NCBI RefSeq assembly: GCF_004402235.1
Contig: NZ_SOFS01000043.1
Coordinates: forward strand, 62,001 to 126,000
DNA length: 64,000 nt
DNA from: Cryobacterium glucosi
GTDB taxonomy: Bacteria; Actinomycetota; Actinomycetes; Actinomycetales; Microbacteriaceae
Direction: 5' to 3'
Made by a program: the position numbers and the translations under genes. How positions within the stretch are numbered: the first letter of the stretch is position 1; every line of letters begins with the position of its first letter. Positions 716 through 62,742 of the stretch are shown here, piece by piece. Below the pieces are notes generated by a model that saw only the letters and a list, made by a program, of their open reading frames with translations, was not told the DNA's origin and ran no database searches.

Positions 716-749
716 CGGATGCCGGGGGCCGAGCGGCCCCCGGCATCCG
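716..749. terminator. Intergenic hairpin made of inverted CGGATGCC motifs
   Basis: Perfect inverted repeat with 15-bp arms (716-730 and 735-749) and loop GAGC. The outer part of each arm is the octamer CGGATGCC / GGCATCCG that is over-represented across the window. It lies between two minus-strand genes (stop at 766, next start at 681). No T-run follows, so it is at best a non-classical terminator, attenuator or mRNA-stabilising structure. Confidence 0.6.
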
Positions 750-765
750 CCCGGGAAAGAAGGGG

Positions 766-2127
766 TCAGAGCTGCACGCGGCGGGGCAGGTCGGTGCGAC
801 GGTAGGTCGTGTCGAGCACGAGGACCTCCGGGGACAGCCACTCCCAGTCGACGTTGTCGTGGTCGGTGTGCAGGACCACGAGGTCGGCGCCGAATGCGTC
901 CGGGTCGACCGTCGCGGTGAGCTCCCTGCCGTTCCTGAGCCGGACGGACCCGAAGAACGGGTCGTGGAACCCGACGTCCGCGCCCTGGTCGGCCAGCATG
1001 CTGAGGATATCCAGCGCAGGCGACTCACGGAGGTCGGCGACGTTGGGCTTGTAGGAGACTCCGACAACGAGCACGCGTGCGCCGCGGAGAGGCTTGCCCT
1101 GGTCGGCGAGGGTTTCGCGCACCCGCTCGAGGACCCGGCGCGGGCGGCCGGCGATCTCGCTCATCGCGTGTTCGATGACCGGCGCGTCGACGTGAGCCTT
1201 GCGGAGCTGCCAGAGCAGGTAGTGCGGGTCGCACGGGATGCAGTGCCCGCCGACGCCGGCGCCGGGGAAGAAGGGCATGAAACCGTAGGGCTTGGTCGCT
1301 GCGGCGTTGATGACCTCGATGACCGACAGCCCGAGGGCGAGGCACGCCTCGGCGAATTCGTTCGCGAGGGCGATGTTCACCGCCCGGAAGGTGTTCTCGA
1401 GGAGCTTGCTCATCTCGGCGACCTCGAGGGAGCTGACACCGTGGATGTTGCGGGCATAGCGGCCGAGGAGGGCGGCTCCTGCGGCCTGGCAGGCCGGGGT
1501 CGCGCCGCCGACCACCCGCGGCACGTCCTCGTGGGCGTAGCGGTCGTTGCCGGGGTCGATGCGTTCCGGGCTGAAGGACACGAAGATGTCCTTGCCTGCG
1601 GTCAGGCCGCGAACGAGCAGCGGGGTGACGAGGAGGTCCCTGGTGCAGCCGGGGTACGTCGTGGAAGTGAGCATCAGGAGCTGGCCGGGAACGGCGGCGT
1701 CGACGACCATCGTGCACGCGCTCGCGAGGATCTCGAGGTCGGGCGTGAGGTGTTCGTCGATCGGCGTGGGGACGCAGATGATGACCGCTGCCGCGTCGCC
1801 GAGGAGGTAGGTGTCACCCGTGATCTGGAAGTCGTCGCCCGACATCGCCGTCTCGAGGCGCTCCCGGTCTGACTCGAGGAGGTCGGCTTCACCGCTGCGG
1901 ATCACGGCGAGCCGGCGTTCGCTCACGTCGACGCCGAGTACGCGGAGACCTGCGGCGTGCAGGGACAGCGCCGTCGGCAGCCCGACGTATCCGAGGCCCA
2001 CGATGGCGACGTCGAAGTCGAACTGGGTGCGGGGGATGACCGGGATGAGCAGGGCGTCCGCGTTCGTGCGCTGGCGGCCCTGGTGCGTGAGCGGCAGGGA
2101 AGAGTCGTCGACGATTTCGATTGACAT
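766..2127 (-). CDS. UDP-N-acetyl-hexosamine/UDP-mannosamine 6-dehydrogenase (nucleotide sugar dehydrogenase)
   Basis: NAD-dependent four-electron oxidation of a UDP-sugar at C6 to the uronic acid, a precursor for surface polysaccharide. The 453-residue length is normal for the WecC/WbpA/TuaD superfamily. The Rossmann motif VAIVGLGYVGLP is near residue 40. The catalytic-cysteine block GVGGHCIPCDPHYLLWQL resembles the UDP-ManNAc/UDP-GlcNAc dehydrogenase branch more than UDP-glucose dehydrogenases. The C-terminal UDP-binding domain (VLVVGVSYKPNVADLRESPA) is intact. Same strand as the downstream epimerase and close to a glycosyltransferase. Substrate branch is inferred from the cysteine motif; family assignment is firm. 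Confidence 0.9.
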   Translation of the reverse strand: MSIEIVDDSSLPLTHQGRQRTNADALLIPVIPRTQFDFDVAIVGLGYVGLPTALSLHAAGLRVLGVDVSERRLAVIRSGEADLLESDRERLETAMSGDDFQITGDTYLLGDAAAVIICVPTPIDEHLTPDLEILASACTMVVDAAVPGQLLMLTSTTYPGCTRDLLVTPLLVRGLTAGKDIFVSFSPERIDPGNDRYAHEDVPRVVGGATPACQAAGAALLGRYARNIHGVSSLEVAEMSKLLENTFRAVNIALANEFAEACLALGLSVIEVINAAATKPYGFMPFFPGAGVGGHCIPCDPHYLLWQLRKAHVDAPVIEHAMSEIAGRPRRVLERVRETLADQGKPLRGARVLVVGVSYKPNVADLRESPALDILSMLADQGADVGFHDPFFGSVRLRNGRELTATVDPDAFGADLVVLHTDHDNVDWEWLSPEVLVLDTTYRRTDLPRRVQL

Positions 2128-2437
2128 TCCAGGTCCTTTGTTCGGGTAAGTCTGTGTGGTTAGGTGCGGTTCGGTGGTTAGGTGCGGTTCGCGGATGCGC
2201 CGCCGTCAGTCGAGGAGTTTCGGGACTCGGCGAGGTGCGGCGTGTGGTGTTCCCTCGGCCAGTCTCTGCAGATGTTGCGATCCGGGCAAGCCATGGCCGG
2301 GACTCTGCGGGATCGTGTGGGCATCCCGCACCCGGATGTGGTTAACCGCACCTGTCTGCCGTCGCGGGCGCCCCGTCCCGCGTGTACGGTCGGACCACCG
2401 GAGCGACCCCGCGTCCGGCCGGTCGACGGAGAATCAC
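2128..2437. other. Intergenic divergent regulatory region of polysaccharide genes
   Basis: About 310 bp without a convincing gene between the minus-strand dehydrogenase and the plus-strand glycosyltransferase. It holds an exact 18-bp tandem duplication (2156-2191) and, near 2340-2353, GTGGTTAACCGCAC, a near-palindrome whose right half resembles the complement of the repeated GGTGCGGTT. Divergent promoters are expected here but I cannot place -35/-10 boxes with confidence. Confidence 0.5.
2156..2191. repeat. 18-bp exact tandem direct repeat (2 copies)
   Basis: GTGGTTAGGTGCGGTTCG occurs at 2156-2173 and again at 2174-2191 with no spacer or mismatch, just upstream of the start of the minus-strand sugar dehydrogenase (start at 2127). 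Iterated sites 18 bp apart could be binding sites for a regulator, or a recent slippage duplication. Confidence 0.85.
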
Positions 2438-3775: not shown

Positions 3776-3816
3776 CGCGACCTGACCGGTCCCTTTCGAT
3801 CAGACCATCCCGTATA

Positions 3817-6540
3817 TCAGACCATCCCGCTTGCCGCACCGTCTGACAGCACCGTGCCGGTGCCGGAGAGCAGCGCGATCAGGTGCGACCGGGACTTGGC
3901 ACCGAGCTTGTTGTATGTGCGGGTGAGGCGTACCTCCACGGTGCGCAGGGAGACGAAGAGCTCGGCGGCGATCTCCTTGTTGCGCTTGCCCTGTTGCACG
4001 AGTTCGGCGACGAGCCGTTCGTCGGGGGCAAGGGTCGCGAGGAGGGGATTGACGCTCGGGGCGTGGGTGCCGAGACGGACGGCATCCGCTTTTCTGGCCC
4101 ACGGGATGGCACCGAGCTGGGTGAAGATCATCCGCGCGGCCAGGTACTGGTCTGCGCCTTCCCTGCCGTGCCCGAGGCTCACGAGCCGGTCGGCGAAGCT
4201 CAGGAGGGTGCGGCCCTGCTCGAATTGCGAATCGCCAGGCTGCCAGAGGCCGGCGGCCTGTTCGAAGACGGCGATGGATGCCTCGCCGGGTGTCAACAGG
4301 GCCTCGGCCCGTGCCGTGGCGAGCACCGTCCACCGGGTGTGGAAGGGCCGGGCCCTGGCCCGGAACTCACGGAACTGGATCACGGCCTCCCGCAGCCGGC
4401 CGGACAGCACGTATGCCTCGATCAGGTCGACCTGGCTCCGGAGCAGCGAGGGGTTGCGGAATGCTGACCCTATTGCTCCGGCCCGGTGCAGGAATGCGAT
4501 CGCATCGTCGAACCTGCCCTCCATGAGGGCGAACCGGCCCTGGTCTGCCACGAGCCGGGCGGCGAGAGCCGGATGGTCGCTCGTCGCGAAGCTGCGGTTG
4601 CAGAGCTCGATCGCCGCGTCCGCGCGCGCTCGGTCTCCGCGGGCCTGCCAGTACCAGGCCGTCAGCAGCTGGAGCGGGCGGCGATGCACCTGTTCCGTCC
4701 CGGATCCTGTGAGCGATTCGATGATGGCCATGGCCTCGAATTGGTTGCCGGCGAGGATCTCGTTCTCTGCGAGGTAGTACCTGGCCGTCTGCAGGACGAT
4801 CGGGTCCGGCGGGGGCTCGAGGCCGACGACGGTGCGCAGCACGCGCCTGGCGTCGCCGTATCGGTCGATGAACGTGAGGCTGCGGCCGAGGACGGACAGT
4901 GCCCTGGCGCTCGTCTCCTCGGTCCAGCCGTGCCGGGACAGCCGCTCGAACATCCGGGTCGAAGGGCCGGGGTCACCCTCGAGAGCAGACAGCAGCAGTG
5001 CGGACAGCTCGTGGAGTTCGATGGACTCCGGGGTCGCGCTTTCGAGGAGGTGACGGCCCCTGGCGAGGGCTTCCCGCGCGGCGTCGACCTCCCAGCGCTC
5101 GGCGTGACTGAGGGCGCTCATGCCGAGCAGGCGCGCGAGGTCTTCCGCCCTGCCGCTCGCGCCGCGCGGTCCGACCCAGTCGTCGAGGTCGGTCGTGAGC
5201 AGCTGGTGGGTCGACATGAATTCGATCCCGCTGCGGAGGGTCGCGAGCTTTGTGACCGTGGCGATCGAGCCGGGCCTGCGCTGGCCGAGCCTGGCATAGC
5301 GGGCCGCATAGGAGAGTTCGCCCTGCAGGTACAGCGCCTCCGCGACCTCGAGCAGGGCTTCGGGGCTTCCGGTGGCGTCGAGCGCGAGGGCGAGGGCGCG
5401 TTCGGCGAGTTCGACGGACTGCCAGATCAGGCCCCTGCGGCCGAATTCGGCAGCGGAGGCGAGCAGTTCGTCCGAGGAGAGGCTGCCGGCATCCGCCCAG
5501 CTGCGGTGCCACGCGGCGAGGCCGGGATCCCCTCCGGGTGCGTCCTCGCTGCGGGCGGCACGGGCATGGAATTCGGCGCGGGTACCGGCGTCGATGGACC
5601 AATAGAGGTGGGAACGCAGCGCTGAGTCCGAAATCCGGAGGTACCGGCCGTCGCGGATGACGGTTCCCGCCGACAGGAGTTCTTCCAGGGCGCCGCGGAT
5701 GGGGTCGCCGCTCTGGCGGATCGGATCCTGGCTGCTGAGGTAGGAGCAGGACAGCATCGCCAGGAGGAGGTGCTGGTCGTCCGGTTCCTGTGAGGTCCGG
5801 GTCGAGGGAGCGCGGGAGGCGCGGAACGGCAGGGCGACGGGGGCGGCGTTCCCGAGGTGCCTGCTGGTCAGGAGCCGGGCGTTCCTGGCGATTTCGGACG
5901 GACTTCCCGATGAGGAGGATGCCAGCATCCGCCGGAGTGCCTCGTCGGACTGGGGCCCGAGAAGCTCGGTGGCGAGGAGCATCGATTCGGCGAAGGTGAG
6001 GCGGTCGAGGGTGATGCGCGGGAGCGAGGCGAGCGGGCCGACGGGGGGCTCCGCGCACACGGTGCCCACGAGGCGCAGCCCCGTGCCGCCGAGGCGCGCC
6101 GCGACCATCGCGAAGACGGTCTGGCTCGGGAGGTCCATCAGGTCGAGGTCGTCGATCAGGAGGAGGGTTGTCTCGGGGGTGAAGTCGCGGATCAGGGCGA
6201 GGAGTTCCGCCGCGCGGGCGGCGAGCTGGGCATCCGCTTCGCCGGGGATGAGGAGTTCGCTCGAGAGCGCTGCGGCGGCCGGGGTCTGGAACGAGGCGAC
6301 GAAGGCCGAGAGGCCGGAGAGCGGGAAGCCGGCTTCCGCAGGATTGATCCTGACCCGGAAGATCTCGATCCCTGGGATCGGTTCGACGGAGGCGAGCAGG
6401 CGCGATTTGCCGGATCCGGGCTCCCCGACGACCAGCATGGCTGACTCATGAGGGGCGGTTGCGAGTTCGAGGATCGCGCCCAGCGTGTCGCGGTGGATGC
6501 TGGACTTCATGCGACGACCCCAGGAATCATTCCGGGCCAT
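3817..6540 (-). CDS. Large ATP-binding LuxR-type transcriptional regulator (LAL family)
   Basis: 907 residues, the usual size for LAL/MalT-like signal-transduction ATPases. The N-terminal AAA-type module has a Walker A loop (VGEPGSGKS, about residues 38-46) and a Walker B-like stretch LLLIDDLDLMDL. A long helical-repeat middle (TPR-like, Ala/Arg/Leu-rich) follows. The C-terminal LuxR helix-turn-helix (about 835-895) reads LAPDERLVAELVQQGKRNKEIAAELFVSLRTVEVRL in two overlapping blocks. An internal ATG at 6510 (MKSSIHRD) is an alternative start; neither has a strong ribosome site. The gene is transcribed away from a 336-bp region carrying a G/C-box palindrome, a plausible target. Inducing ligand unknown. 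Confidence 0.88.
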   Translation of the reverse strand: MARNDSWGRRMKSSIHRDTLGAILELATAPHESAMLVVGEPGSGKSRLLASVEPIPGIEIFRVRINPAEAGFPLSGLSAFVASFQTPAAAALSSELLIPGEADAQLAARAAELLALIRDFTPETTLLLIDDLDLMDLPSQTVFAMVAARLGGTGLRLVGTVCAEPPVGPLASLPRITLDRLTFAESMLLATELLGPQSDEALRRMLASSSSGSPSEIARNARLLTSRHLGNAAPVALPFRASRAPSTRTSQEPDDQHLLLAMLSCSYLSSQDPIRQSGDPIRGALEELLSAGTVIRDGRYLRISDSALRSHLYWSIDAGTRAEFHARAARSEDAPGGDPGLAAWHRSWADAGSLSSDELLASAAEFGRRGLIWQSVELAERALALALDATGSPEALLEVAEALYLQGELSYAARYARLGQRRPGSIATVTKLATLRSGIEFMSTHQLLTTDLDDWVGPRGASGRAEDLARLLGMSALSHAERWEVDAAREALARGRHLLESATPESIELHELSALLLSALEGDPGPSTRMFERLSRHGWTEETSARALSVLGRSLTFIDRYGDARRVLRTVVGLEPPPDPIVLQTARYYLAENEILAGNQFEAMAIIESLTGSGTEQVHRRPLQLLTAWYWQARGDRARADAAIELCNRSFATSDHPALAARLVADQGRFALMEGRFDDAIAFLHRAGAIGSAFRNPSLLRSQVDLIEAYVLSGRLREAVIQFREFRARARPFHTRWTVLATARAEALLTPGEASIAVFEQAAGLWQPGDSQFEQGRTLLSFADRLVSLGHGREGADQYLAARMIFTQLGAIPWARKADAVRLGTHAPSVNPLLATLAPDERLVAELVQQGKRNKEIAAELFVSLRTVEVRLTRTYNKLGAKSRSHLIALLSGTGTVLSDGAASGMV

Positions 6541-6876
6541 TCCGGGGGTCGGTGAAGGAGTTCATTCATGAGACGGCGCTTCGTTTCGGGTAACGAGTGC
6601 GTGCGGATCACTCTGTTGGGGGAGTACAGCAGCCGCCTCGGGGATGAGTCGGTGCTCTGCATTACTACCTGTGTGCGGTCCCGGAATGGGTGGTCCGGGA
6701 CCTGTCACCCCCGGTGAAGGGGGTTCCTGTTATGCAAGGTACGCTCATTTTCTTCCAAGGTATCCCCCACTAGTGGGGGATTACGGCGCGCCGAAAGCCT
6801 GGGGGTGCGCGGAGGGGCATCCGCTGTGATACCGGTACTGGGCGGTTCTGCCACGACTAAATCGTGTTTGACCGCG
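6541..6876. other. 336-bp non-coding regulatory region upstream of the LAL regulator
   Basis: No supported gene. It contains a hairpin GGTCCCGG...CCGGGACC (6677-6702, 8-bp stem, 10-nt loop), several five-base G or C tracts (near 6613, 6707, 6719 and 6762-6781) and a 20-bp perfect palindrome. The downstream end (about 6816) carries one CGGATGCC-type octamer. The region is the 5' leader of the LAL regulator on one side and the 3' flank of the alcohol-dehydrogenase gene on the other. Confidence 0.55.
6762..6781. promoter_or_regulatory. 20-bp perfect palindrome, candidate LuxR-type operator
   Basis: The two 10-bp halves are ATCCCCCACT and AGTGGGGGAT with no spacer, centred on ACTAGT. It lies about 220 bp upstream of the LAL regulator start. 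LuxR-type regulators of actinobacteria such as RamA are known to prefer short G/C-tract sites, so autoregulation is a reasonable inference. No protein-binding evidence is available from sequence alone. Confidence 0.6.
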
Positions 6877-9389: not shown

Positions 9390-10251
9390 CGGCGCAGTCA
9401 GGGCAGACGACGAGCTGTGCGCGGCAGGACGGCTCGCGGCAGTTCTGCATCCGGTTGGTCGCTGCCGCGCAGCAGGCGCAGCGGCCGAGGACCGCGGTGT
9501 CCCCTGCGAAGTCGACGGACATCCGCTGGTCGAAGACATAGAGCGAACCGTCCCAGAGACCGGCATTCCCGTAGGCCTCGCCGTACCCCACGATGCCGCC
9601 ATCGAGCTGGTAGACCTCGCCGAAGCCGCGGTCCTTCATCAGTGAGCTGAGCACCTCGCAGCGGATGCCGCCGGTGCAGTACGTCACGACCGGCCGGTTC
9701 TTGAGGTGGTCGTACCGGCCGCTGTCGAGCTCTGCGGCGAAGTCGCGGGTCGTCGCGACGTCGGGAACGACGGCGCCCCGGAAGCGTCCGATCTCCGCTT
9801 CGAAGGAGTTGCGGCCGTCGAAGAAGACCAGGTCGTCGCCGTGCTCGGCGGCGAGTTCGTGCAGCGCGGCGGGGGAGAGCCGGGTGCCGCCGCCCTGCAC
9901 TCCTGCCGCGGTGACCGTGAGGTCGCCGGGAGCGCCGAAGCTCACGATCTCCTCGCGCACCTTCACCACGAGGCGCGGGAAGTCGAGGCTCAGGCCGGCC
10001 TCGTCGAGCCCGGTGCCTTCGCTCCACCGGAAGTCGATGTCGTGGAACGCCGGGTACTCGCGCGTCTTCCGCACGTAGCGTTTCACGGCCGGGAGGTCGC
10101 CGCCGATCGTGCCGTTGAGCCCGTCCTTCGAGATCAGGATGCGGCCGCGGAGGCCGAGGGCTTCGCACAGGTCGCGCTGCCAGAGCCGTACGGCCTCGGG
10201 GTCGGCGAGCGGCGTGAAGACGTAGTAGAGCAGGATCTTCGGAATGGCCAC
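9358..10251 (-). CDS. trhO: tRNA uridine(34) hydroxylase (rhodanese-like)
   Basis: TrhO (formerly YceA) makes 5-hydroxyuridine at the wobble position of certain tRNAs. 297 residues, near family size. The N-terminal domain starts [13 protein letters not shown]; the rhodanese domain holds the active-site loop [11 protein letters not shown] at about residues 190-200. The C-terminal cysteine-rich tail (CACC, NCREPSC, VVCPDC) is a normal family feature. The 3' end overlaps the convergent LssY_C gene by 32 bp. Confidence 0.92.
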
Positions 10252-12199: not shown

Positions 12200-12745
12200 A
12201 TGACCACCGCCGATCCGCTCGCCGTCTACGGCGAGGTGCCGCTCTTCACGCTCTCGAGCACGGATGTGACCGACGGGGCACCGCTTTCGGCCGCGCAGTT
12301 CGGCGAGGAAGCCGATGGCCTCGACCGGTCGCCGCAGCTGTCCTGGAGCGGGTTCCCCGCCGACACGAAGAGTTTTGCGGTCACTCTCTACGACCCGGAT
12401 GCCCCGACCGGCTCTGGCTTCTGGCACTGGGCGGTCTTCAACCTCCCGGCCGCCGTCACGTCCCTTCCCGCCGGAGCCGGCGCCCCCGGCGGTACCCAGT
12501 TGCCCGCCGGCGCGGTCACCCTGCCCAACGAGCTGCGGCTCACCTCCTTCATCGGTGCCGGCCCGCCGCCCGGAACCGGCACCCACCGCTATCAGTTCAT
12601 CGTGCACGCAGTGGATGTCCCCACTCTCGACCTCGACCCCGGGTCGACTCCCGCCGTGCTCGGCTTCACCCTCCGGTTCCACACCCTCGGCCGCGCGGTC
12701 ATCGAGGCGACCGGAGCATTCGGCGGGGCGGCGCTGCACCCCTAG
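12200..12745 (+). CDS. YbhB/YbcL (Raf kinase inhibitor/PEBP-like) family protein
   Basis: 181-residue soluble protein of the phosphatidylethanolamine-binding fold. The conserved block AVTLYDPDAPTGSGFWHWAV (DPDAP...HW) and the later GTHRYQFIVHAVD are diagnostic. The ATG at 12200 was chosen over upstream in-frame possibilities because AGGAGG sits at 12190-12195. Its function in bacteria is not well defined. Confidence 0.92.
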   Translation: MTTADPLAVYGEVPLFTLSSTDVTDGAPLSAAQFGEEADGLDRSPQLSWSGFPADTKSFAVTLYDPDAPTGSGFWHWAVFNLPAAVTSLPAGAGAPGGTQLPAGAVTLPNELRLTSFIGAGPPPGTGTHRYQFIVHAVDVPTLDLDPGSTPAVLGFTLRFHTLGRAVIEATGAFGGAALHP

Positions 12746-14513: not shown

Positions 14514-15077
14514 ATGCATATGCTGATCCGCACCCTCTTCCACGGCTGGCTGTCGAAGCGGGGCCCCCGCGTCGGGTCCTACGACGTCGTCAGAACCCGG
14601 TTCGTGACCCTCCCGACCGACCAGGACATCCTGCGGCACATGAACAACGGGGTGTACCTGTCGATCATGGACATCGCCAGGCTCGACCTGCTGCACCGTA
14701 CCGGCATCTGGCCGATCTTCACCGCACGCGGCTGGTACCCCGTCGTCGTGAGCGAGACCATCAGCTTCCGTAAATCGCTCACCGTCGGCCAGCGGTTCAC
14801 CGTCGAGTCGCGCATCCTCGGTTTCGACGAGAAGGCCGTCTACGTGGAGCAGCGCTTCGTGCGACCGGATGCCGACGGTAACCCCGAGATCCTCGCGCTC
14901 GGCTTCATCCGGGGCCGCTTCCTCAAGCGCAGCGGGGGCGTCGTCGGAATCGAGGAACTGCTCGCCGCCGTCGGACCGGCGCCCGCCGGCCTCACCGTCC
15001 CGGCGTGGCTGCTCGAGTGGAGCGCCGACGTCGCCCTGCCCGCGACCCGCGCGGCCGCGCCGAGTCTCTGGGAGTAG
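14514..15077 (+). CDS. Hotdog-fold acyl-CoA thioesterase (4HBT family)
   Basis: 187 residues. LRHMNNGVYLSIMDIARLDLL carries the hotdog central helix with the HMNN active-site signature; VVVSETISFRKSLTVGQRF follows. It probably hydrolyses an acyl-CoA or acyl-carrier thioester. ATGs at 14514 and 14520 are both possible starts. Divergent from the LysE gene with only 42 bp between starts. Confidence 0.87.
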   Translation: MHMLIRTLFHGWLSKRGPRVGSYDVVRTRFVTLPTDQDILRHMNNGVYLSIMDIARLDLLHRTGIWPIFTARGWYPVVVSETISFRKSLTVGQRFTVESRILGFDEKAVYVEQRFVRPDADGNPEILALGFIRGRFLKRSGGVVGIEELLAAVGPAPAGLTVPAWLLEWSADVALPATRAAAPSLWE

Positions 15078-50916: not shown

Positions 50917-51597
50917 TCAGGCGAGGGCGGAGACCGCAGCCTGGACCGGCGTGCGGCCGGAGACCAGGTACAGCGTCTCGAGGGCGCCGGAGCCCGAGAC
51001 GATGAGCGCGGCGAGAACCGCCGCGACGTCCGCGCGGGGGATCGTGCCGCGTACCTCCGGGATACCCGGACCGGTGTGCTCGAGGGTCACGAGCCCGGCG
51101 GCCGGCTCGTCAGTGAGACCGGCCGGGCGCACGATCGTCCAGGCGAGGTCCCGGCGCACGAGATCCTCCTCCGCGGCGAGCTTGGCACGGAGGTAGGCCA
51201 CGAAGTCCGCGGGCACTCCGGCAGGCTCGGCGTCGTCGCGCACGAGGTCGGCCCCGGTCGACGAGACCTGCAGGAACCGGCGCACGCCTGCTGTCTCCGC
51301 CGCATCGGCGAGTAGAACGGATGCCCCCAGGTCGACGCTCGTCTTGCGCGCGTCGCCGCTGCCCCCGCCTGCGCCTGCGGCGAAGACGGCCACGTCGGCC
51401 CCGGACAGAACCTCCGCGAGCTCGGCGGGAGTCGTTGCCTCGAGATCGAGCACGACCGGGGTCGCGCCGTCGGTGCGGAGGTCGTCCGCCTGGTTCGGGT
51501 TCCGGATCAGTCCGATCACCTCGTGGCCGTCAGCCGTGAGGTCCCGGGTCAGAAGCCGGGCGATCTTTCCGTGTCCACCTGCAATTACAATACGCAT
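50917..51597 (-). CDS. NAD(P)-binding, NmrA/YwnB-like atypical SDR protein
   Basis: 226 residues: RIVIAGGHGKIARLLTRDL (GxxGxxG-like), VAVFAAGAGGG, LQVSSTGAD, LAWTIVRPAGLTDEPAAG. This matches NAD(P)H-binding atypical short-chain dehydrogenases lacking a standard YxxxK. Activity unknown. Confidence 0.87.
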   Translation of the reverse strand: MRIVIAGGHGKIARLLTRDLTADGHEVIGLIRNPNQADDLRTDGATPVVLDLEATTPAELAEVLSGADVAVFAAGAGGGSGDARKTSVDLGASVLLADAAETAGVRRFLQVSSTGADLVRDDAEPAGVPADFVAYLRAKLAAEEDLVRRDLAWTIVRPAGLTDEPAAGLVTLEHTGPGIPEVRGTIPRADVAAVLAALIVSGSGALETLYLVSGRTPVQAAVSALA

Positions 51598-51677
51598 CTC
51601 AAGGACAACGCCGCCGGGCGCTCCCGAATTCCCGCGCCCGGCATCCGCCCGCCAACCGCCCGTGTCGGGCGCCCGTG

Positions 51678-53575: not shown

Positions 53576-54463
53576 ATGAGCGTGCGTACAGAAGGTCAAA
53601 CGGGGGGTTCACACAGGATGGGTTGGCGACGGATCACGGCTATCTCCCTCGCTGCCGTTCTCGTGGCCGGCGGGGCCGTCGCGCTCGGTTTTTTCGCGAC
53701 GCACGCCCCGGCATCCGTCGCAACGGCGCTGCCCGGCGCGACGCCAGACCCCGGGTCTCCCGCGACGCACACGCCCGGCGACCGGCCGACACCCACGGAT
53801 GCCGCGCGCCCGGCCCCGACCGCATCACCGACGCCGATAGCGTTGGTCCCGCGCTTCGACAAGGCGGCGCGTTCGCACGATGACCCGACCAGCATCTGGG
53901 TCGTCGTCGACAAGGACCGCCCCCTGCAGCCGGCCGATTACACCCCGCCGGATCTCGTGACCGTGCCCGTGCCGCACGTCTGGGAACCGCAGCTCCGCCG
54001 GGAGGCATCCGACGCCGTCGTGGCCCTTTTCGCCGCCTTCACGGCCGAGACCGGGCTGAAGCTGCAGTCGCAGAGTTCCTACCGCAGTTATCCCACCCAG
54101 GTCGCGGTGTACAACGACGACGTCTCGGCCCACGGGCAGGCCGTCGCGGACACGAGCACCGCCCGGCCGGGCACGAGCGAACACCAGACCGGCCTCGCGA
54201 TCGACATCAGCGCCCTGCCGGCGAGTTGCTCCCTCGACGCCTGCTTCGGGGCGACTCCCCAGGGCACCTGGCTCGCGCACAACGCCTGGAAATACGGTTT
54301 CCTGCTCCGTTATCCGGAGGACAAGGTCGCCGTGACCGGCTACGCGTATGAACCGTGGCATTTCCGCTACATCGGCGTCGACCTCGCGACCGAAATGCAC
54401 ACGGATGGCGTGACCACTCTCGAGGAATTCTTCGGTCTCCCGGCGGCCCCGACCTATCACTAG
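53576..54463 (+). CDS. VanY-like D-alanyl-D-alanine carboxypeptidase (M15)
   Basis: 295 residues. An N-terminal membrane anchor or signal (WRRITAISLAAVLVAGGAVALGFF) is followed by a Pro/Thr-rich wall-spanning linker and the M15 peptidase domain: SSYRSYPTQVAVYN, zinc ligands in GTSEHQTGLAIDIS, and catalytic Glu/His in AYEPWHFRYIG. It trims the terminal D-Ala of peptidoglycan stem peptides outside the cell. ATG at 53618 is a second possible start. Followed by two further cell-wall-type proteins. Confidence 0.9.
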   Translation: MSVRTEGQTGGSHRMGWRRITAISLAAVLVAGGAVALGFFATHAPASVATALPGATPDPGSPATHTPGDRPTPTDAARPAPTASPTPIALVPRFDKAARSHDDPTSIWVVVDKDRPLQPADYTPPDLVTVPVPHVWEPQLRREASDAVVALFAAFTAETGLKLQSQSSYRSYPTQVAVYNDDVSAHGQAVADTSTARPGTSEHQTGLAIDISALPASCSLDACFGATPQGTWLAHNAWKYGFLLRYPEDKVAVTGYAYEPWHFRYIGVDLATEMHTDGVTTLEEFFGLPAAPTYH

Positions 54464-54525: not shown

Positions 54526-55932
54526 ATGTCGGGTCCCCGTCCGCCGTCCAGAAACGATTTCGTGCGCCCCCATACACGTCCTGAAGGTCCCGCCCGCTCC
54601 CGCCATCGCCGGGAAGATCCACTGCCCCTCCGCCCCATCAGCCCTCCACGGCCGACCGATTCGCCGTCCTCGGACTCCCTGTCGACAGGCTCCCTGGCGA
54701 CCGCCGCCCGCTCCTCCGACTCCCTCGGCGTCGTCCGTTCCCGGCACCGCCTCGAGAAGGCGCCGTCCGGCCACCGCCCGCTGATCTGGCTGGCCGGCTC
54801 GGCCGCCGCCGCCAGCCTGTGCTTCGGCCTCTTCGTCCCGCTCTCGAGCCAGGCGTCCCCCGGGGTCGCCACCGCGGCATCCGCCCCACTCGCGGCCTCG
54901 CGCCCGGTGCCGGCGAGTGTCGTGGCCGCCGTGCCCGTCGTGGCCGGCAGCCCCGTCATCTACAGCGCGGTGAGCGCCGGCGACGGCGGCTCTGCCGGAC
55001 CTGTCACCGGCGGAACGGTCGTGAGCGTCACCGGCTCCGGGCTCGCGGGAGTGTCGGGCGTGAGCTTCGGCGGCAACGCCGGCACCGTGCTCTCGGCGAC
55101 CGACACGACGGTCACCATCTCGACGCCCGCGTCGACCGACTACGGCACCGGTTCCGTGGCGGTCTCGCTCGTCGACAGCACCGGGGCGATCGTTCCCGTC
55201 GCGAGCACCCCTGCGGATGCCGCGAACGCCGCCGCAGCGGCCGCGACAGCAGCCGCCGCGTCGAAGGCGTCTTCGGTCGCGTCGCTCTCGCAGGCGATCA
55301 CGCCCCTCGTGGATGCCGCGGCCCCCCTCGCCGCCGCGACCCCGACCCCGGCCCCGAGCGGCGCAGCGAGCGCCCTCGCGAGCACCGGCGCCGCGGCCGA
55401 CACCGCACCCGCTGTGGCCGTCGCCGCCGGCGTGAGCCCGCTCACCTTCCAGTACGTCCCCGACCCGCGCATCACGGCCCAGATCGGCTACGTGCGCGCC
55501 CACTGGAACTCATACAACTCCGCCGTCTACGGCGCCATCGGCGGCAACGACTGCGTCAACTTCACGAGCCAGTCGCTGATCGCGCGCGGGTGGACGATGG
55601 ACGCCGAGTGGTCCTATAGCGCTGCAGGCGCCGGATACAGCTCCGCCTGGTCGAGCTCGACCGCGTTCGCCGCGTACCTGTCCGCCCACCCCGAGCGTGC
55701 CACGCCGCTCACCGCCGGCGAAAGCAGCCGGGTCAAGGTGGGCGACATCGTGCAATTCGACTGGGACCGCTCCGGCGACAAAGACCACACCGGAATCGTC
55801 ACCCGCGTCGTCAAGGACGCCTCGGGAACGCACCTCTATTACGCAGGTCACACCGAAGATAGCCTCGACAAGTCCGTCGAGGAATCCCTCGCGAACACCG
55901 GGGGAACGGTGAGCTACTGGAGCGTCGCCTAG
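54526..55932 (+). CDS. Secreted/anchored TIG-domain plus amidase-domain protein
   Basis: About 468 residues. A basic, Pro/Ser-rich N-terminal part (1-85) leads to one membrane helix or late signal (about 86-107), then an IPT/TIG beta-sandwich (about 144-226, GGTVVSVTGSGLAGVSGVSFGG), an Ala-rich linker and a putative amidase domain (about 315-468) with NDCVNFTSQSL (Cys 343) and KDHTGIVTRV (His). The Cys/His pair suggests a peptidoglycan amidase or peptidase. The start is uncertain: ATG at 54526 has no ribosome site and the frame opens at 54355. Confidence 0.75.
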   Translation: MSGPRPPSRNDFVRPHTRPEGPARSRHRREDPLPLRPISPPRPTDSPSSDSLSTGSLATAARSSDSLGVVRSRHRLEKAPSGHRPLIWLAGSAAAASLCFGLFVPLSSQASPGVATAASAPLAASRPVPASVVAAVPVVAGSPVIYSAVSAGDGGSAGPVTGGTVVSVTGSGLAGVSGVSFGGNAGTVLSATDTTVTISTPASTDYGTGSVAVSLVDSTGAIVPVASTPADAANAAAAAATAAAASKASSVASLSQAITPLVDAAAPLAAATPTPAPSGAASALASTGAAADTAPAVAVAAGVSPLTFQYVPDPRITAQIGYVRAHWNSYNSAVYGAIGGNDCVNFTSQSLIARGWTMDAEWSYSAAGAGYSSAWSSSTAFAAYLSAHPERATPLTAGESSRVKVGDIVQFDWDRSGDKDHTGIVTRVVKDASGTHLYYAGHTEDSLDKSVEESLANTGGTVSYWSVA

Positions 55933-56029: not shown

Positions 56030-56794
56030 GTGCAGTTCACCCGACGCTTTCGCATCAGCGCAGCCGCGCTCGCGTTCGCTGCTCTCGTGATCGGCACCGC
56101 CGCCGTCGCATCCTGGGGCGACGACGATTCAGACTCGGCGCGAGCGGAGATCGCCACATCGGTGACCCCCACAGACACCGCGACCCCTCGGGCGACGCCG
56201 GCGGATGCCGGTGCTCCCGTCGCCGTCGACACCGCGCCTGTCGCGACCGCAACGCCGACACCCGCTCCGGCGCCCGTGACGACCGCCGCGCCCGCCCCCG
56301 TCGCGGCGGCTTCGACCGGCGGAGTGCAGGCCCAGGTCGACTACATGATCGCGCACTGGACGAACTACAACACGGCGGACTACGGCGTCGTCACCGACAA
56401 CGACTGCGTCAACTTCACGAGCCAGTCCCTGATCCAGCGCGGCTGGGCCATGGACGGCAGCTGGTGGTCCAAGGGCACCGGCTCGTCCTTCACCCACTCG
56501 AACGCCTGGGTCAGCTCGACCGCGTTCCGCAACTACCTCGCGAGCTCTGGGCGTGCGACCGCGCTCACCGACCAGCAGCGCGACCAGGTCAAGGTCGGCG
56601 ACGTCGTGCAGTTCGACTGGGACAACTCGGGCGACCGCGACCACACCGGCGTCGTGACCCGCATCGAGGGCAGCGGCGACGACATCGTCATCTACTACGC
56701 AGGCCACACCGACGACACCGACTACCGTTCCGTCGACTACGCGATCACCGTGAAGCACCCGGGCGCCACCGCGTACTACTGGAGCATCCCCTAA
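56030..56794 (+). CDS. Exported amidase-domain protein (paralogue of the upstream gene)
   Basis: 254 residues. Signal peptide or anchor RRFRISAAALAFAALVIGTAAVASW, a Pro/Thr/Ala-rich linker (about 40-95), then the same amidase domain as the previous gene (about 98-254): NDCVNFTSQSL (Cys 126) and RDHTGVVTRI. The two domains are strongly similar over ~150 residues, so this is a tandem duplication in which one copy has a TIG module. GTG start with GAGGA five bases upstream. Confidence 0.82.
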   Translation: MQFTRRFRISAAALAFAALVIGTAAVASWGDDDSDSARAEIATSVTPTDTATPRATPADAGAPVAVDTAPVATATPTPAPAPVTTAAPAPVAAASTGGVQAQVDYMIAHWTNYNTADYGVVTDNDCVNFTSQSLIQRGWAMDGSWWSKGTGSSFTHSNAWVSSTAFRNYLASSGRATALTDQQRDQVKVGDVVQFDWDNSGDRDHTGVVTRIEGSGDDIVIYYAGHTDDTDYRSVDYAITVKHPGATAYYWSIP

Positions 56795-56812: not shown

Positions 56813-56868
56813 GACGGATGCCGCCGCCCGCGCCCGCCGACCGGCGAACGTGCGCGACGGCATCCGTC
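56813..56868. terminator. Inverted CGGATGCC pair in a convergent gap
   Basis: GACGGATGCCG (56813-56823) and CGGCATCCGTC (56858-56868) are exact inverted copies, 34 bp apart, filling the 85-bp gap between the convergent amidase and phosphoglucomutase genes. Possible bidirectional terminator built of the over-represented octamer; loop is large and no T-run follows. Confidence 0.5.
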
Positions 56869-56879
56869 TACGAAAGTGT

Positions 56880-58496
56880 CTACGCGATGGCGGCGTCGAC
56901 GATCGCCTTCGCCTCGAGCTGCACCTGGCGGAGGTGCTCCGGGCCCTTGAAGGACTCGGCGTAGATCTTGTAGACGTCCTCTGTGCCGCTCGGCCGGGCG
57001 GCGAACCAGGCGTTCTCGGTGACGACCTTGAGGCCGCCGATCGCGGCCCCGTTGCCTGGGGCGTGGCTGAGCTTCGCGAGGATCTTCTCGCCGGCGAGTT
57101 CGGTCGCGGTGATCGCGTCGCCGTCGAGCTTGCCGAGCTGGGCCTTCTGCGCGGGCGTCGCCGCGGCATCCACCCGGGCGTACGCCGGGTCGCCGAAGTG
57201 CTCGACGAGTTCGGCGTAGCGCTGGCTCGGGCTCTTGCCGGTGACGGCGAGGATCTCGGAGGCGAGCAGGGCCAGCAGGATACCGTCCTTGTCCGTCGTC
57301 CAGACCGTGCCGTCGAAGCGCACGAAGCTCGCACCGGCGCTCTCCTCGCCGCCGAACGCGACCGAACCGTCGATGAGCCCGGGCACGAACCACTTGAACC
57401 CGACCGGCACCTCCCAGAGGTCGCGGCCGAGGAAGCCGGCGACCCGGTCGATCATCGTCGAGGAGACGAGCGTCTTGCCGATCGCGGCGTCAGCGCGCCA
57501 GCCCTCGCGGTGGCTGTAGAGGTAGTCGATCGCGACGGCGAGGAAGTGGTTCGGGTTCATCAGGCCGCCGTCCGGCGTGACGATGCCGTGCCGGTCGGCG
57601 TCGGCGTCGTTGCCGGTGAGGATGTCGAAGTCGTCCTTGTGGGCGATGACCGAGGCCATCGCGGAGGGGCTCGACGGGTCCATCCGGATCTTGGAGTCCC
57701 AGTCCAGGGTCATGAAGCGCCAGGTCGGGTCGACCTTGGGGTTCGTGACGGTGAGATTGAGCTCGTAGCGGTCGCGGATCGCTCCCCAGTAGCCGACGCT
57801 CGCACCGCCGAGGGGGTCTGCGCCGATGCGGATGCCGCTCGCCTTGATGGCGGCCATGTCGATGATGTTCTCGAGGTCGTTCACGTACGCACCGCGGAAG
57901 TCGTAGGTCTCGACCGCGCTCGGTTCGCTCATCTTCACGTCGACGAGTCCGCCGGCGATGAGCTCGTTGGCGCGCGCGGCGATCCAGGAGGTGGCGTCGC
58001 TGTCGGCCGGTCCACCGTGCGGGGGGTTGTACTTGAAGCCGCCGTCGGTCGGGGGGTTGTGGCTGGGGGTGACGACGATGCCGTCGGCCTCATCGGTGTT
58101 CCCTGCCCGGTTGTAGGCGAGGATCGCGTGCGAGAGCGACGGGGTGGGCACGTAGTCGTCGAACTCGTCGACGAGCACGCGCACGCCGTTGCCGACGAGC
58201 ACTTCGAGCGCCGTCGTGTACGCCGGGGCGCTCAGCGCGTGCGGGTCCGTCCCGATGAAAAGGGGGCCCGTGATGCCCTGATTGGTGCGGTACTCGACGA
58301 TGGCCTGCGTCGTCGCGATGATGTGGTTCTCGTTGAAGGCCGTGTTCAGCGAACTGCCACGGTGCCCGGAGGTGCCGAATGCCACCCGTTGGGCGGGCAC
58401 GGTCACATCGGGTTTCAGGTCGTAGTACGCCTTGATCAGCGCGTCGACATCGATCAGGTCTGATTCCAGGGCCGGAGTGCCCGCACGTTCATTCAT
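56880..58496 (-). CDS. pgm: Phosphoglucomutase, alpha-D-glucose specific
   Basis: Interconverts glucose-1-phosphate and glucose-6-phosphate. 538 residues. [14 protein letters not shown] near the start, active-site phosphoserine in [19 protein letters not shown], metal loop [13 protein letters not shown], sugar-binding [10 protein letters not shown], and phosphate-binding [18 protein letters not shown] at 58496 follows GGGGAC; an upstream start at 58517 is unlikely. It may feed the polysaccharide precursors made at the start of the window. Confidence 0.95.
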
Positions 58497-58531
58497 GTCC
58501 CCAGTCTGGCACTGCAAGTAGGCTGTGAGCC

Positions 58532-59467
58532 ATGTCCGAGACGCGCAAAGCCAGCTACAGCTTCCTGGGGCCGGCGGGCACCTTCACCGAGGCGGCACTC
58601 GCCCAGGTGCCCGAGGCGCGCGGCCAGGCCTGGCGCTCCGTCAACAACGTGGGCGAGGCGCTCGCCGACGTCGTCTCCGGTCGCAGCGTCGCCGCGATGA
58701 TCGCGATCGAGAATTCCGTCGACGGCGGCGTGTCCGCCACCCAGGACGCGCTCGCGAAGGTGCCGGACCTCCGGATCATCGGCGAGTATCTCGTGCCGGT
58801 GAACTTCGTGCTCGTGGCCAGGCCGGGCACGACGCTTGCCGACGTGAAGATCGTCGCCGCGCATCCGGTCGCATACGCCCAGTGCCGGAACTGGCTCGAG
58901 ACGAACGTTCCGCACCACGGCCACATCCCCGCCTCGAGCAATGTGGCGGCGCCGGCCTCACTGCTCGAGACCGAACAGGCGGATGCCGCGGTCGCCCCTC
59001 CGGGGATCGAGAACCATCTCGACCTCACGGTTCTCGCCACCGACATCGGTGACAACCCGAACGCCGTCACCCGGTTCGTGCTGGTCAGCCGCACGACCGT
59101 GATCCCGGAACGCACCGGTGCGGACAAGACGAGCCTCATCGTCGAGCTGCCGGAGGACCGCGCGGGGGCGCTCCTCGAATTGCTCGAGCAGTTCGCGACC
59201 CGCGGGGTCAACCTTTCGCTGATCCAGTCGCGTCCGATCGGCGACGCGCTCGGTCGCTACCGGTTCGTGATCGACGCCGACGGGCACATCCACGACGAAC
59301 GCGTCGCCGACGCCCTGCTCGGCCTGCGCCGGTTCAGCCCGAAGGTGATCTTCCTCGGCTCGTACCCCCGGGCCGACCTGCAGCAGAACGAGTACACCAA
59401 GCGCTACGACGACGACGTCTACATCGGCGCGCGCGCCTGGCTCGACGCCCTCCTCCGCGGCGCCTGA
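58532..59467 (+). CDS. pheA: Prephenate dehydratase
   Basis: Makes phenylpyruvate, the penultimate step to phenylalanine. 311 residues: [33 protein letters not shown] (TRF catalytic motif) and a C-terminal ACT domain ([36 protein letters not shown]) for Phe feedback inhibition. A short tail ([25 protein letters not shown]) follows. 35 bp from the divergent pgm. Confidence 0.93.
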
Positions 59468-59581: not shown

Positions 59582-59620
59582 AGCAGGAAAGCAGGCGGAG
59601 TGGGGCGGGGCCGGGGGGCG

Positions 59621-60622
59621 TTACGCGGAAGCGGGCGCGGGCATCCGCACCGTGAGCGCGCCGGGGTCGGCACGCAGGGAGACGGCGCGCACCGGGCCGA
59701 ACTCGTCGCCGTCGATCTCGAACTCCTGCGGGTGCTCGAGCACGATCCTGATCCGTGAACCCCGAAGCGTCGTCATCACCCGTTCGTTGCTCGACTCGCT
59801 CTGGGCGATGATCCTGCGCCCGACCGCGGAGCGGCGCAGCACGCCGTTCTCCCACGTCACCCTGCGCCAGATGGTCAGCCAGCCGAGGACGCCCTTGGGC
59901 TGCAGCACGGCGATGTCGAGAATCCCGTCGTCCACCTGGGCATCGGGCAGGAACTGGATGTTGCCCGGCAGGACCCCGCAGTTCGCGACCAGGATCGTGC
60001 TCACGTGCGCCGGCCGGTCGGTGCGACCCTCGAGGCTATAACGGATGCGGAATGGCTTCGACTTCGGGATCACCCGCATGCCGGCATCGACATACGCGAG
60101 CCAGCCGACCTGTTTCTTGAGATCGGCGCTCGTGTTGGCGATCATCTGGGCATCGAGCCCGAGGCCGGCCATCACCAGGAAGACGTGTTCGGCTTTCTCA
60201 CCCTCGGTGTCGGTGAGCACTGCGACGCCGAGGTCGATCGCCCGGTCCACGCCGCCGAACGCGATCTCCACCGCCGCATCGAGGCTCGCGAGCGGCAGCG
60301 CCAGGTTTCGGGCCAACAGGTTCCCCGTGCCGGCCGGCACGATCGCGAGGGCAACGCCCGTGTCGCGCAGGGCCTCGGCGACCGCGCGCACGGTGCCGTC
60401 CCCTCCCGCCGCGAGCACCACGGATGCCCCTTGTTCGATCGCCGTCCGGGTCGCCCGCTGACCGGCATCCGTCTCGGTCGTCGACAGCCACACCGTGCCC
60501 GACCACCCGGCGGCGGACTCGGCCGCTGCGACGCTCGCGCGGAGCTTGACCACGTCAACCTTGATCGGGTTGTACACGACGGCCGCTCGACGGCCGCTCG
60601 GAGTCTCACCGGGAGTATTCAC
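59621..60622 (-). CDS. Diacylglycerol kinase-like lipid kinase (YegS/DagK family)
   Basis: 333 residues: AAVVYNPIKVD, nucleotide loop VVLAAGGDGTVRAVAEAL, IVPAGTGNLLARNL, and the C-terminal beta-domain FLPDAQVDDGILDIAVL. Phosphorylates diacylglycerol or a related lipid alcohol, possibly in phosphatidylinositol or glycolipid metabolism. Divergent from serS by 48 bp. Confidence 0.92.
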   Translation of the reverse strand: MNTPGETPSGRRAAVVYNPIKVDVVKLRASVAAAESAAGWSGTVWLSTTETDAGQRATRTAIEQGASVVLAAGGDGTVRAVAEALRDTGVALAIVPAGTGNLLARNLALPLASLDAAVEIAFGGVDRAIDLGVAVLTDTEGEKAEHVFLVMAGLGLDAQMIANTSADLKKQVGWLAYVDAGMRVIPKSKPFRIRYSLEGRTDRPAHVSTILVANCGVLPGNIQFLPDAQVDDGILDIAVLQPKGVLGWLTIWRRVTWENGVLRRSAVGRRIIAQSESSNERVMTTLRGSRIRIVLEHPQEFEIDGDEFGPVRAVSLRADPGALTVRMPAPASA

Positions 60623-60670
60623 GGGGTAAGGCTAGCAAGGCGCTCCGGCGGGCGCTTGTAGACTGGCACG

Positions 60671-61936
60671 GTGATTGATCCTGTACTGCTGCGAGAGAAT
60701 CCCGATCTGATCAAGCGTTCGCAGAAGGCGCGGGGCGCTTCGGTCGAAGCTGTCGACGCCGCGCTCGCCGCGGACACGGCCAGGCGCACCTCGATCAAGG
60801 CCTACGAAGACCTGCGCGCCGCCCAGAACCAGTTCGGCAAGCAGGTCGCGAGCGCGCCCCCCGCCGAGAAGAAGGCCCTCGTCGCAGAGGCCCAGGCCCT
60901 CGCCGCCCGGGTCAAGGCCGCTGCGGCGACCGCGACGGATGCCGAGGCGGACTTCACCGGGATCGTCCGCACCCTCGCCAATCCCATCATCGACGGCGTC
61001 CCGGCCGGAGGCGAGGAGAACTTCACCACGCTCCGCACCCACGGCGAGATCCCCACCTTCGACTTCGAGGCCCGCGATCACCTCGAGCTGGGCGAAATGC
61101 TCGGCGCGATCGACATGGCCCGCGGCGCGAAGGTGTCCGGAGCGCGCTTCTACTTCATGCGCGGCATCGGAGCCCGGCTCGAGATCGCCCTGATGAACAT
61201 GGCCCTCGACCGCGCGCTCCAGGCCGGGTTCATCCCCCTGATCACGCCCACGCTCGTCCGCCCGGAGATCATGGACGGCACCGGCTTCCTCGGCGAGCAC
61301 GCCGACGAGATCTACTACCTTCCCGCCGACGACCTCTACCTCACCGGCACGAGCGAGGTCGCGCTCGCCGGGTACCACTCCGACGAGATCCTCGACCTGA
61401 ATGATGGCCCGCTGCGCTACGCCGGCTGGTCCACCTGTTACCGCCGCGAGGCCGGCTCCGGCGGCAAGGACACCCGCGGCATCATCCGGGTGCACCAGTT
61501 CAACAAGCTCGAGATGTTCACCTACGTCCTCCCCGAGAACGCCGAGGCAGAGCACGACCGCCTCGTCGCCCTGCAGGAGGGCATGCTGCAGTCCCTCGGT
61601 CTCAGCTACCGCGTGATCGACGTCGCAGCGGGCGACCTCGGGTCGAGCGCGGCCCGCAAATTCGACATCGAGGCGTGGGTGCCCACCCAGAACGCCTACC
61701 GCGAGCTGACCAGCACGAGCAACTGCACCACGTACCAGGCCCGACGTCTGGACATCCGCTATCGCACCGAATCGGGCAAGACCGCGCCGGTCGCCACCCT
61801 CAACGGCACCCTCGCGACCACGCGTTGGATCGTCGCGATTCTCGAGACGCACCAGCGAGCGGATGGCTCGGTGCTCGTCCCCGAGGCGCTGCGGCCCTGG
61901 CTCGGCGGCCTCGAAGTCCTCGAGCCGATCCGATGA
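60671..61936 (+). CDS. serS: Serine--tRNA ligase
   Basis: 421 residues. The N-terminal coiled-coil tRNA-binding arm (about 25-100) is followed by the class II core: motif 2 in [32 protein letters not shown] and motif 3 near [23 protein letters not shown] start. The stop overlaps the next start by ATGA. A tRNA-Ser gene lies 950 bp downstream. Confidence 0.96.
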
Positions 61937-62742
61937 CCGCGACCGTCTCGCCCTGGCTCGTCGCCCTCGACATCGACGGAACCACCGTGCACGAAGACGG
62001 TTCGATCAGCCCCTCCGTGCTCGAGGAAGTACAGCGGCTCACCCGCTCCGGGCACGAGATCATGCTCGCAACCGGTCGTTCGACGGCGGCCACCCTGCCG
62101 GTGCTCGAGCGCCTCGACATAACGCCCCGCTACGTGGTCTGCTCTAATGGCGCGATCACCCTGCGCCGGGACCTGACCGCGCCGACCGGGTATCGCCGCG
62201 AATGGGTCGAGACCTTCGACCCGAGCGAGGTGCTGCTCTCGATCCGCTCGCACCTCGGCGACGCACGCTACGCCGTCGAAGACGAGCACGGCTTCTACCG
62301 GTACACCGAACCCTTCCCGGATGCCACCATCGGCCTCGACAGTGAACACGTCGAGTTCGACGAGCTGCTCCGCCACGAGGCCACCCGCGTCGTCGTCATC
62401 TCGCCTGACCACGAGATGGAAGACTTCCTGCAGGTCGTCGAGCAGATGGGCCTCAACCGGGTGAGCTACTCGATCGGCTGGACCGCGTGGCTCGACATCG
62501 CGCCCGACGGCGTCAACAAGGCCACCGCAATGGAGCGGGTCCGAGCCGAGCTGGACATCCCCCGTGCCCGGGTGATGGCCGTCGGTGACGGACGCAACGA
62601 CATCGAGATGCTCGAGTGGGCCGGGCTCGAGGGCCGCGGCGTTGCCATGGGCCAGTCCCCCCATGAGGTGCTCGCGGCGGCCGGGGAGATCACGGGAGCC
62701 GTGCTCGACGACGGCCTCGCCACGGTTCTCGCGTCGCTCTGA
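61933..62742 (+). CDS. HAD superfamily hydrolase (Cof type)
   Basis: 269 residues: [15 protein letters not shown] (Asp nucleophile motif I), MLATGRS (motif II), NKATAMERV (motif III Lys) and [14 protein letters not shown] (motif IV). The type IIB cap between suggests Cof-like sugar-phosphate or FMN phosphatase activity. Translationally coupled to serS, a conserved actinobacterial pairing as far as I recall; why is not known. Confidence 0.92.

Follow-up and report, generated by a model that had tools for sequence, protein, structure and literature searches.

Abundance of the octamer in the window and in the genome

Why does one eight-letter word recur so often in the DNA of Cryobacterium glucosi? 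The DNA in question is a 64-kb stretch of contig NZ_SOFS01000043.1 (assembly GCF_004402235.1, positions 62,001 to 126,000), referred to here in its entirety as the window, and the word is the octamer CGGATGCC, written GGCATCCG when it lies on the reverse strand. We consider it fairly probable that the Microbacteriaceae have a self-recognition signal resembling a DNA uptake sequence (DUS), of which CGGATGCC would be the local dialect. This reading explains the whole pattern best. The pattern comprises the excess of the word, its independence of codon usage, its lack of strand polarity, its conservation, the restriction of a strong excess to one family, the dialects of related genomes, the inverted pairs and the presence of com and tad genes.

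An exact count gave 58 copies in the window, of which 27 lie on the forward and 31 on the reverse strand. In 100 dinucleotide-preserving shuffles of the window the mean was 7.02 and the largest count 14, indicating an approximately 8-fold excess. A sequence-only reading of the window had listed 56 copies (25 versus 31) and a ten-fold excess; the over-representation was upheld, whereas the copy number and the size of the excess had to be corrected. The example coordinates in that reading were right within a few bases (e.g., 12402 for the copy at 12396 and 21153 for that at 21150). The genome (G000; 3.93 Mb in 48 contigs) carries 2300 copies, or 586 per Mb, against 101 for the reversed word, so that the excess was confirmed genome-wide; the strand balance described for the window was also found there (1171/1129). 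The resulting ratio of 23 overstates the excess, because the reversed word, which holds TAG, is rare in genes. Fairer figures are the 8-fold of the dinucleotide shuffle in the window and the 4- to 6-fold of codon shuffling and Markov models, the Markov expectations being fitted on motif-bearing sequence and thus themselves raised by the motif. Beyond the octamer no clear flank was detected in the window, except for a preceding A or G (47 of 58 copies) and a following G (40 of 58).

Copies of the motif located in the window by exact word count (coordinates, strand):

716-723, forward, motif CGGATGCC
742-749, reverse, motif
4081-4088, reverse, motif
5488-5495, reverse, motif
6229-6236, reverse, motif
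6816-6823, reverse, motif
9662-9669, forward, motif
12396-12403, forward, motif
13336-13343, reverse, motif
13731-13738, reverse, motif
14866-14873, forward, motif
15505-15512, reverse, motif
16256-16263, forward, motif
16554-16561, reverse, motif
18850-18857, reverse, motif
18902-18909, forward, motif
19415-19422, reverse, motif
20785-20792, reverse, motif
21150-21157, forward, motif
21713-21720, reverse, motif
22787-22794, reverse, motif
24603-24610, reverse, motif
25171-25178, reverse, motif
25307-25314, forward, motif
26432-26439, forward, motif
27166-27173, reverse, motif
28162-28169, forward, motif
28897-28904, forward, motif
29391-29398, reverse, motif
29650-29657, forward, motif
32368-32375, reverse, motif
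34064-34071, reverse, motif
36490-36497, reverse, motif
36889-36896, forward, motif
39613-39620, forward, motif
39636-39643, reverse, motif
42010-42017, forward, motif
45116-45123, forward, motif
46370-46377, reverse, motif
47595-47602, forward, motif
49819-49826, reverse, motif
51318-51325, forward, motif
51640-51647, reverse, motif
53710-53717, reverse, motif
53796-53803, forward, motif
54004-54011, reverse, motif
54876-54883, reverse, motif
55214-55221, forward, motif
56202-56209, forward, motif
56815-56822, forward, motif
56859-56866, reverse, motif
57829-57836, forward, motif
58980-58987, forward, motif
59640-59647, reverse, motif
60421-60428, forward, motif
60464-60471, reverse, motif
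60936-60943, forward, motif
62318-62325, forward, motif

Elsewhere in the genome, a 20-kb stretch of lower G+C fraction (0.61; L226, G000:C14:1-20000) contained only 2 copies, whereas the mean density of the genome predicts about 12. This stretch is perhaps recently acquired DNA.

Codon usage and reading frames

Codon usage was examined in 378 kb of the genome (the window and further stretches), in which our own simple codon-usage caller placed 289 genes (82% coding). The caller probably misses some genes, and the class of DNA between genes therefore includes some coding DNA. The called genes contained 189 copies, against a mean of 43.3 and a maximum of 61 in 200 shuffles of synonymous codons within genes. 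The excess over codon-shuffled genes was 4.4-fold, and CGGATGCC had the top z-score among 8-mers. The ratio of observed to Markov-expected counts (order 1 to order 3, fitted per class) was 4.7 to 6.0 in genes and 5.3 to 6.0 between genes. Codon usage does not explain the excess of CGGATGCC, and the earlier proposal of a signal at the DNA level, made partly because the word occurs in different reading frames, was borne out on both counts. The frames were xCG-GAT-GCC in 95 genic copies, xxG-GCA-TCC-Gxx (Ala-Ser) in 41, GGC-ATC-CGN (Gly-Ile-Arg) in 36 and others in 17; orientation relative to the gene was divided 105/84.

A bias in codons, dipeptides or context-dependent mutation could in principle produce such a word without any function, and the concentration of 172 of the 189 genic copies in three frames agrees with this. 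The 4.4-fold excess over codon-shuffled genes, the similar enrichment between genes, a conservation above that of words of the same composition and an excess of inverted pairs (see below) make this explanation very improbable.

Conservation and strand polarity

Sequences surrounding leuS and the com genes were aligned pairwise for eight Cryobacterium (C. glucosi and seven others) and for six Agromyces. The proportion of identical aligned motif windows was 39.9% of 276 in Cryobacterium and 32.3% of 322 in Agromyces, whereas control words of equal composition reached 19.6% and 22.7%; these comparisons share branches, exclude gapped windows and carry no P value. Windows with one mismatch were rarer than in the controls (19.2% versus 29.8% in Cryobacterium and 18.3% versus 31.0% in Agromyces). 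In both alignments, CGGATGCC is either kept whole or its place has diverged. Many motif sites are not shared between species, indicating that the word turns over and does not mark fixed places.

Polarity with respect to replication was tested in one relative, G253, whose genome is a single contig with dnaA at base 236. Stretches sampled at even intervals and totalling 400 kb held 107 leading-strand and 135 lagging-strand copies (P = 0.08), and the leading fraction stayed within 0.44 to 0.56 for all 20 trial origin positions. Forward and reverse counts were nearly equal in 150 genomes of the family (the z values had a standard deviation of 1.17 and a maximum of 3.1). Strand polarity is typical of Chi and of FtsK-orienting sites, and its absence argues against both; the Chi-like alternative raised by the sequence-only reading thus loses weight.

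These results bear on the possibility that the word is a chromosomal site of a DNA-binding protein other than an uptake receptor, be it a Chi-like site, a polar site for segregation or a translocase, or a nucleoid-protein site. The thousands of copies, the occurrence in many genera of the Microbacteriaceae and the conservation above control words are all compatible with such a site, and Chi-like sites vary between lineages. Besides the lack of polarity, close inverted pairs that form hairpins and dialects that shift while the core stays fixed would not be expected of a Chi- or FtsK-type site. A nonpolar nucleoid-protein site is untouched by the polarity result. We regard this group of explanations as a whole as unlikely.

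Taxonomic distribution

By its LeuS the genome groups with Cryobacterium (C. zongtaii, 89%), which puts it in the Microbacteriaceae. A draw of 248 genomes from the order comprised 18 Microbacteriaceae and 230 genomes of other families. The ratio of motif to reversed word was above 7 in 16 of the 18 Microbacteriaceae, the exceptions being G069 (2.6) and G205 (3.7). Other families of the order had ratios of about 1 to 4, and the highest noticed among their 230 genomes was about 4 (G226, 313:79). Among 269 genomes from other orders of the class, the highest ratio noticed was 5.3 (G540, 264:50, about 98 per Mb). A strong excess of CGGATGCC was seen only in the Microbacteriaceae, among the genomes surveyed.

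Within the family (150 genomes, 85 genera), the ratio was at least 5 in 76 genomes, at least 10 in 40 and at least 20 in 13, and the logarithm of motif density correlated at 0.93 between congeners (62 pairs). The comparison with related genera revealed the word in excess across many of them; some others carried dialects.

Dialects around a GGA[T/G] core

The search for other words covered family members poor in CGGATGCC and also some that are rich in it. In several relatives poor in CGGATGCC, the over-represented words share a GGA[T/G] core when aligned by eye (GCAGGATCC, GCGGATCC, GGATGCG and GGAGGCG). The top 8-mer against codon shuffling was GCAGGATC in G294 (43 versus 7.0), CAGGATCC in G251 (34 versus 3.4, in a shuffle set pooled with the Frondihabitans locus L159), GCGGATCC in G281 (47 versus 12.5), CGGATGCG in G275 (29 versus 8.1), GGATGCCG in G295 (60 versus 21.7), GGAGGCGC in G302 (42 versus 16.2) and CGGATGCC itself in G304 (37 versus 5.0). 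No such core word was on top against codon shuffling in G282, G263 or G261; the GGAGGCG word of G282 failed this control (60 versus 45.6, maximum 55), and other words ranked higher. In a Markov survey of 24 genomes, the top 8-mer was a GGAT word in 10, a weak GGAT word in 2 and a GGAGGCG word in 2, and the other 10 genomes had no such core word at all.

The reversed forms of AGGATCC and CGGATCC hold CTAG and are useless as controls, so genomes were compared with each other. Congeners repeated the same words in genome-wide counts: AGGATCC (2943 in G251 and 1463 in G332), CGGATCC (5752 in G281 and 6237 in G353) and GGATGCG (4904 in G275 and 4756 in G348). Differences within a genus were also found. 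One lies inside the core, G302 having GGAGGCG (with 1393 GGATGCG) and G369 having 4225 copies of GGATGCG. In the other, G370 combines 4111 copies of CGGATCC with 3548 of CGGATGCC, and the respective counts in its congener G304 are 880 and 4041.

In named loci, CGGATGCC reached 57 versus 14.4 in Cryobacterium, 92 versus 15.1 in Agromyces, 32 versus 6.7 in Herbiconiux and 23 versus 4.6 in Salinibacterium. Raw counts were high for GGATGCG in Leifsonia sp. Root227, Arenivirga and Agrococcus, for AGGATCC in Frondihabitans, and for CGGATCC in Naasia and one Leucobacter. In the pooled loci of Curtobacterium (9), of Rathayibacter (2) and of Aurantimicrobium (2), none of the seven top-ranking words contained GGAT.

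The composition of these words raises the question of methylation. In that case, CGGATGCC would be recognized by a methyltransferase, either solitary or linked to restriction, and enriched as HIP1 may be, through selection for the modified site or mutation around it. The words include GGATG, GGATCC or GATGC, which are Type II targets (FokI, BamHI and SfaNI), some dialect words containing the palindrome GGATCC, and cyanobacteria carry enriched words of unclear function (HIP1). Restriction targets are usually avoided rather than accumulated, however, CGGATGCC is asymmetric and not its own complement, and the dialects vary on both sides of GGAT. We consider a methylation target improbable.

In the genus g136, CGGATGCC was depleted in G298 and G365 (43 and 44 copies versus 115 and 114 of the reversed word). 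GYGGATCG was enriched in G298, as judged from the Markov expectation alone. In G263 (L081-L083, L213), CGAGCAGC/GCTGCTCG occurred 93 times versus 27.6 after codon shuffling; this pair was weaker in other genomes and may therefore be a codon-pair effect.

Inverted pairs and hairpins

In 11 sequence sets, 22 pairs of motifs at most 60 bases apart were in the order CGGATGCC...GGCATCCG, against about 6.8 expected. The other inverted order was found 8 times (6.8 expected) and direct pairs 8 times (13.5 expected). The genome of C. glucosi has 9 close CGGATGCC...GGCATCCG pairs, and for 209 control words of similar frequency the number was never above 6. Four of the five close pairs in the window are in this order, and three of these four formed hairpins when folded:

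716-749, no strand, inverted pair with a terminator-like hairpin, shortly past the 3' end of called gene 766-2127 (reverse), -42 kcal/mol, z -6.3
39613-39643, no strand, inverted pair with a hairpin, shortly past the 3' end (39581) of a called gene (forward), -33.2 kcal/mol, z -2.45
56815-56866, no strand, inverted pair forming a hairpin just 3' of the gene 56880-58517 (reverse), -51.3 kcal/mol, z -5.9

The pair at 60421-60471, which is within a called gene, gave no hairpin on folding. The DUS and the uptake signal sequence (USS) sit in terminators (PMC3630211 and PMC13020248).

Competence and pilus genes

Of the competence and pilus genes that an uptake signal would call for, the genome has comEA, tad genes and an interrupted comEC. 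The gene order is leuS-comEA-comEC-holA, and the HhH domain of ComEA was matched. A first tad cluster encodes TadA, TadE and a Flp-like small protein (recognized as Flp by reading, without a Pfam match), and a second lies near topA. The comEC gene is split by a mobile element of about 8.6 kb with a G+C fraction of 0.61, which contains one motif copy against about five expected:

G000 contig C27, about 78.2-86.8 kb (L025:1217-9780), outside the window, element in comEC with a serine recombinase next to the comEC 3' half

Matches to comEC were obtained in 137 of 139 Microbacteriaceae (58/60 and 80/80 in two sets), with the domain cut in 3. The 80-genome set consisted of all 18 genomes of g1-g3 and 62 of the 85 genomes G307-G391 (162 handles in all); the 23 left outside were mostly small or incomplete, and G374, G376, G377 and G385 were dropped to reach 80. 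The two genomes without a match, G259 and G285, are drafts in 180 and 420 contigs. Loss of comEC was rejected as the cause of low motif counts, as the low-motif genomes G069 and G205 have a full comEC domain match. In G341 (L228, G341:C1:340501-345500) and G366 (L229, G366:C1:333501-338500), the cut in the comEC domain falls at roughly the same conserved position, and the serine recombinases beside the cut are 27% and 47% identical, respectively, to that of C. glucosi. Such cuts were found in 3 of 137 comEC-bearing genomes, each in a different genus, and integrative elements of the Microbacteriaceae thus seem to use comEC repeatedly for attachment. The interruption can be likened to the mobile elements reported to disarm transformation (PMC11472951 and PMC4774983).

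Genes for a type IV pilus were found in a further cluster:

L206:4066-16749 (G000:C41), type IV pilus cluster with pilB, pilT, pilC, pilA, three putative minor pilin genes, pilD, pilM, putative pilN and pilO

An uptake signal could be read by this PilB/PilT pilus, with a minor pilin as the ComP-like receptor, and the pil cluster together with full-length PilB in 31 of 60 Microbacteriaceae genomes speaks for it. Motif-rich genomes without PilB exist, however, and PilB-bearing families of the order show no strong excess; on these grounds the type IV pilus was rejected as the determinant of the motif. At least two kinds of minor-pilin modules were distinguished among 20 pilB loci, and they did not track the dialects (20 genomes, judged by eye). 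We consider a PilB/PilT-read signal most improbable. At least one T2SSE-family ATPase was found in all 60 genomes, and in those without PilB it is presumably TadA. A Tad system like that of Micrococcus luteus (PMC4322843) seems likelier than the PilB/PilT pilus.

A possible uptake signal of the Microbacteriaceae

For the favored DUS-like reading, the following course of events may be envisaged. A cell-surface receptor of the competence machinery would prefer double-stranded DNA carrying the word, and ComEA and ComEC would then bring in one strand. Homologous recombination would spread and retain word-bearing alleles, so that copies would accumulate in any orientation, within and between genes. 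When the receptor changes, the word would drift into dialects around the common GGA[T/G] core. Sequence-biased uptake, the receptor and recombination as the driving force are what we infer from the genomes. The DUS and USS had been named as the closest analogues of the word, and the dialects with a shared core, the inverted pairs and the com and tad genes fit this.

Several observations weigh against this reading. Described earlier as evenly spread, the copies were slightly clumped in 5-kb bins (variance/mean of 1.28 in C. glucosi and 1.22 in G253), and regular spacing was not found in either. The motif is not denser between genes (0.53 per kb) than in genes (0.61 per kb) in the 378-kb sample. 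Aligned windows with three or more mismatches were somewhat commoner than in the controls (27.6% versus 25.4% in Cryobacterium and 32.3% versus 23.0% in Agromyces). The ratio of CGGATGCC to its reversed word was below 2 in 24 of the 150 family genomes, and comEC also occurs in genomes whose highest-ranking word lacks GGAT, G263 and G261 among them. The comEC gene of C. glucosi is itself interrupted. G021, G038, G083, G097 and G304 are rich in the motif and lack PilB, and the weak association of PilB with the motif in 60 genomes (Mann-Whitney P = 0.025) disappears in the 49 that reach 2.4 Mb (P = 0.37), both P values ignoring kinship. A comparison of the minor pilins at the pilB locus yielded no receptor candidate.

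In a wider form, the proposal is that of a third DUS system, independent of those of the Neisseriaceae and Pasteurellaceae and the first of its kind among Gram-positive bacteria, comprising dialects around the GGA[T/G] core (changed inside the core between the congeners G369 and G302), a Tad/Flp- or ComEA-linked receptor, and mobile elements that counter it by inserting at one comEC site. We give this combination an even chance. Among the open-licence papers searched, in so far as their text was accessible, no report of an uptake sequence in the Microbacteriaceae or Actinomycetota turned up. If the proposal is true, selection of self DNA is not tied to an outer membrane, the monoderm, high-G+C family being a convergent third case, and there is one more receptor to find. 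The 85 sampled genera with measurable dialects would then be a natural experiment on the evolution of uptake specificity and on species isolation. In practice, addition of the word to DNA might ease the genetics of actinomycetes from soil and cold habitats.

Comparison with known systems

Chi and the FtsK-orienting sites (KOPS) are over-represented, nonpalindromic, strand-polar octamers. CGGATGCC is likewise a nonpalindromic octamer but is nonpolar in G253. HIP1 of cyanobacteria is a dense, over-represented octamer as well, but a palindrome, which CGGATGCC is not. The USS of the Pasteurellaceae is a 9-mer with AT-rich flanks, whereas CGGATGCC is unrelated in sequence and lacks a clear flank save the A or G before it and the G after it. 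Like CGGATGCC, the USS is spread over the whole genome; it is a self word that occurs in terminators as well (PMC13020248), and its two dialects share an unchanging inner core, GCGG (PMC12616744).

Micrococcus luteus resembles C. glucosi as a high-G+C Gram-positive bacterium with comEA, comEC and two tad clusters, and its transformation requires both tad clusters and comEC (PMC4322843). The term "uptake sequence" is absent from that paper. An equally strong motif excess was not seen outside the Microbacteriaceae in the surveyed genomes, which sets CGGATGCC apart from this system.

The DUS of the Neisseriaceae, with ComP as its receptor, differs from the word described here in its unrelated sequence. 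The Gram-positive host has no outer membrane, a ComP-type receptor was not found among the minor pilins compared, and the pilus may be of the Tad/Flp kind instead of type IVa. Intergenic regions are termed particularly permissive for the DUS of Neisseria (PMC3630211), whereas CGGATGCC is not denser between genes. The likeness lies in a short word with thousands of copies, inverted pairs (in terminators for the DUS, in hairpins at gene ends for some pairs of CGGATGCC) and dialects around an inner core (PMC3630211 and PMC13020248). The DUS dialects are described there (PMC3630211) as words changing around an invariant inner core, which is CTG in the Neisseriaceae and would be GGA[T/G] in the Microbacteriaceae.

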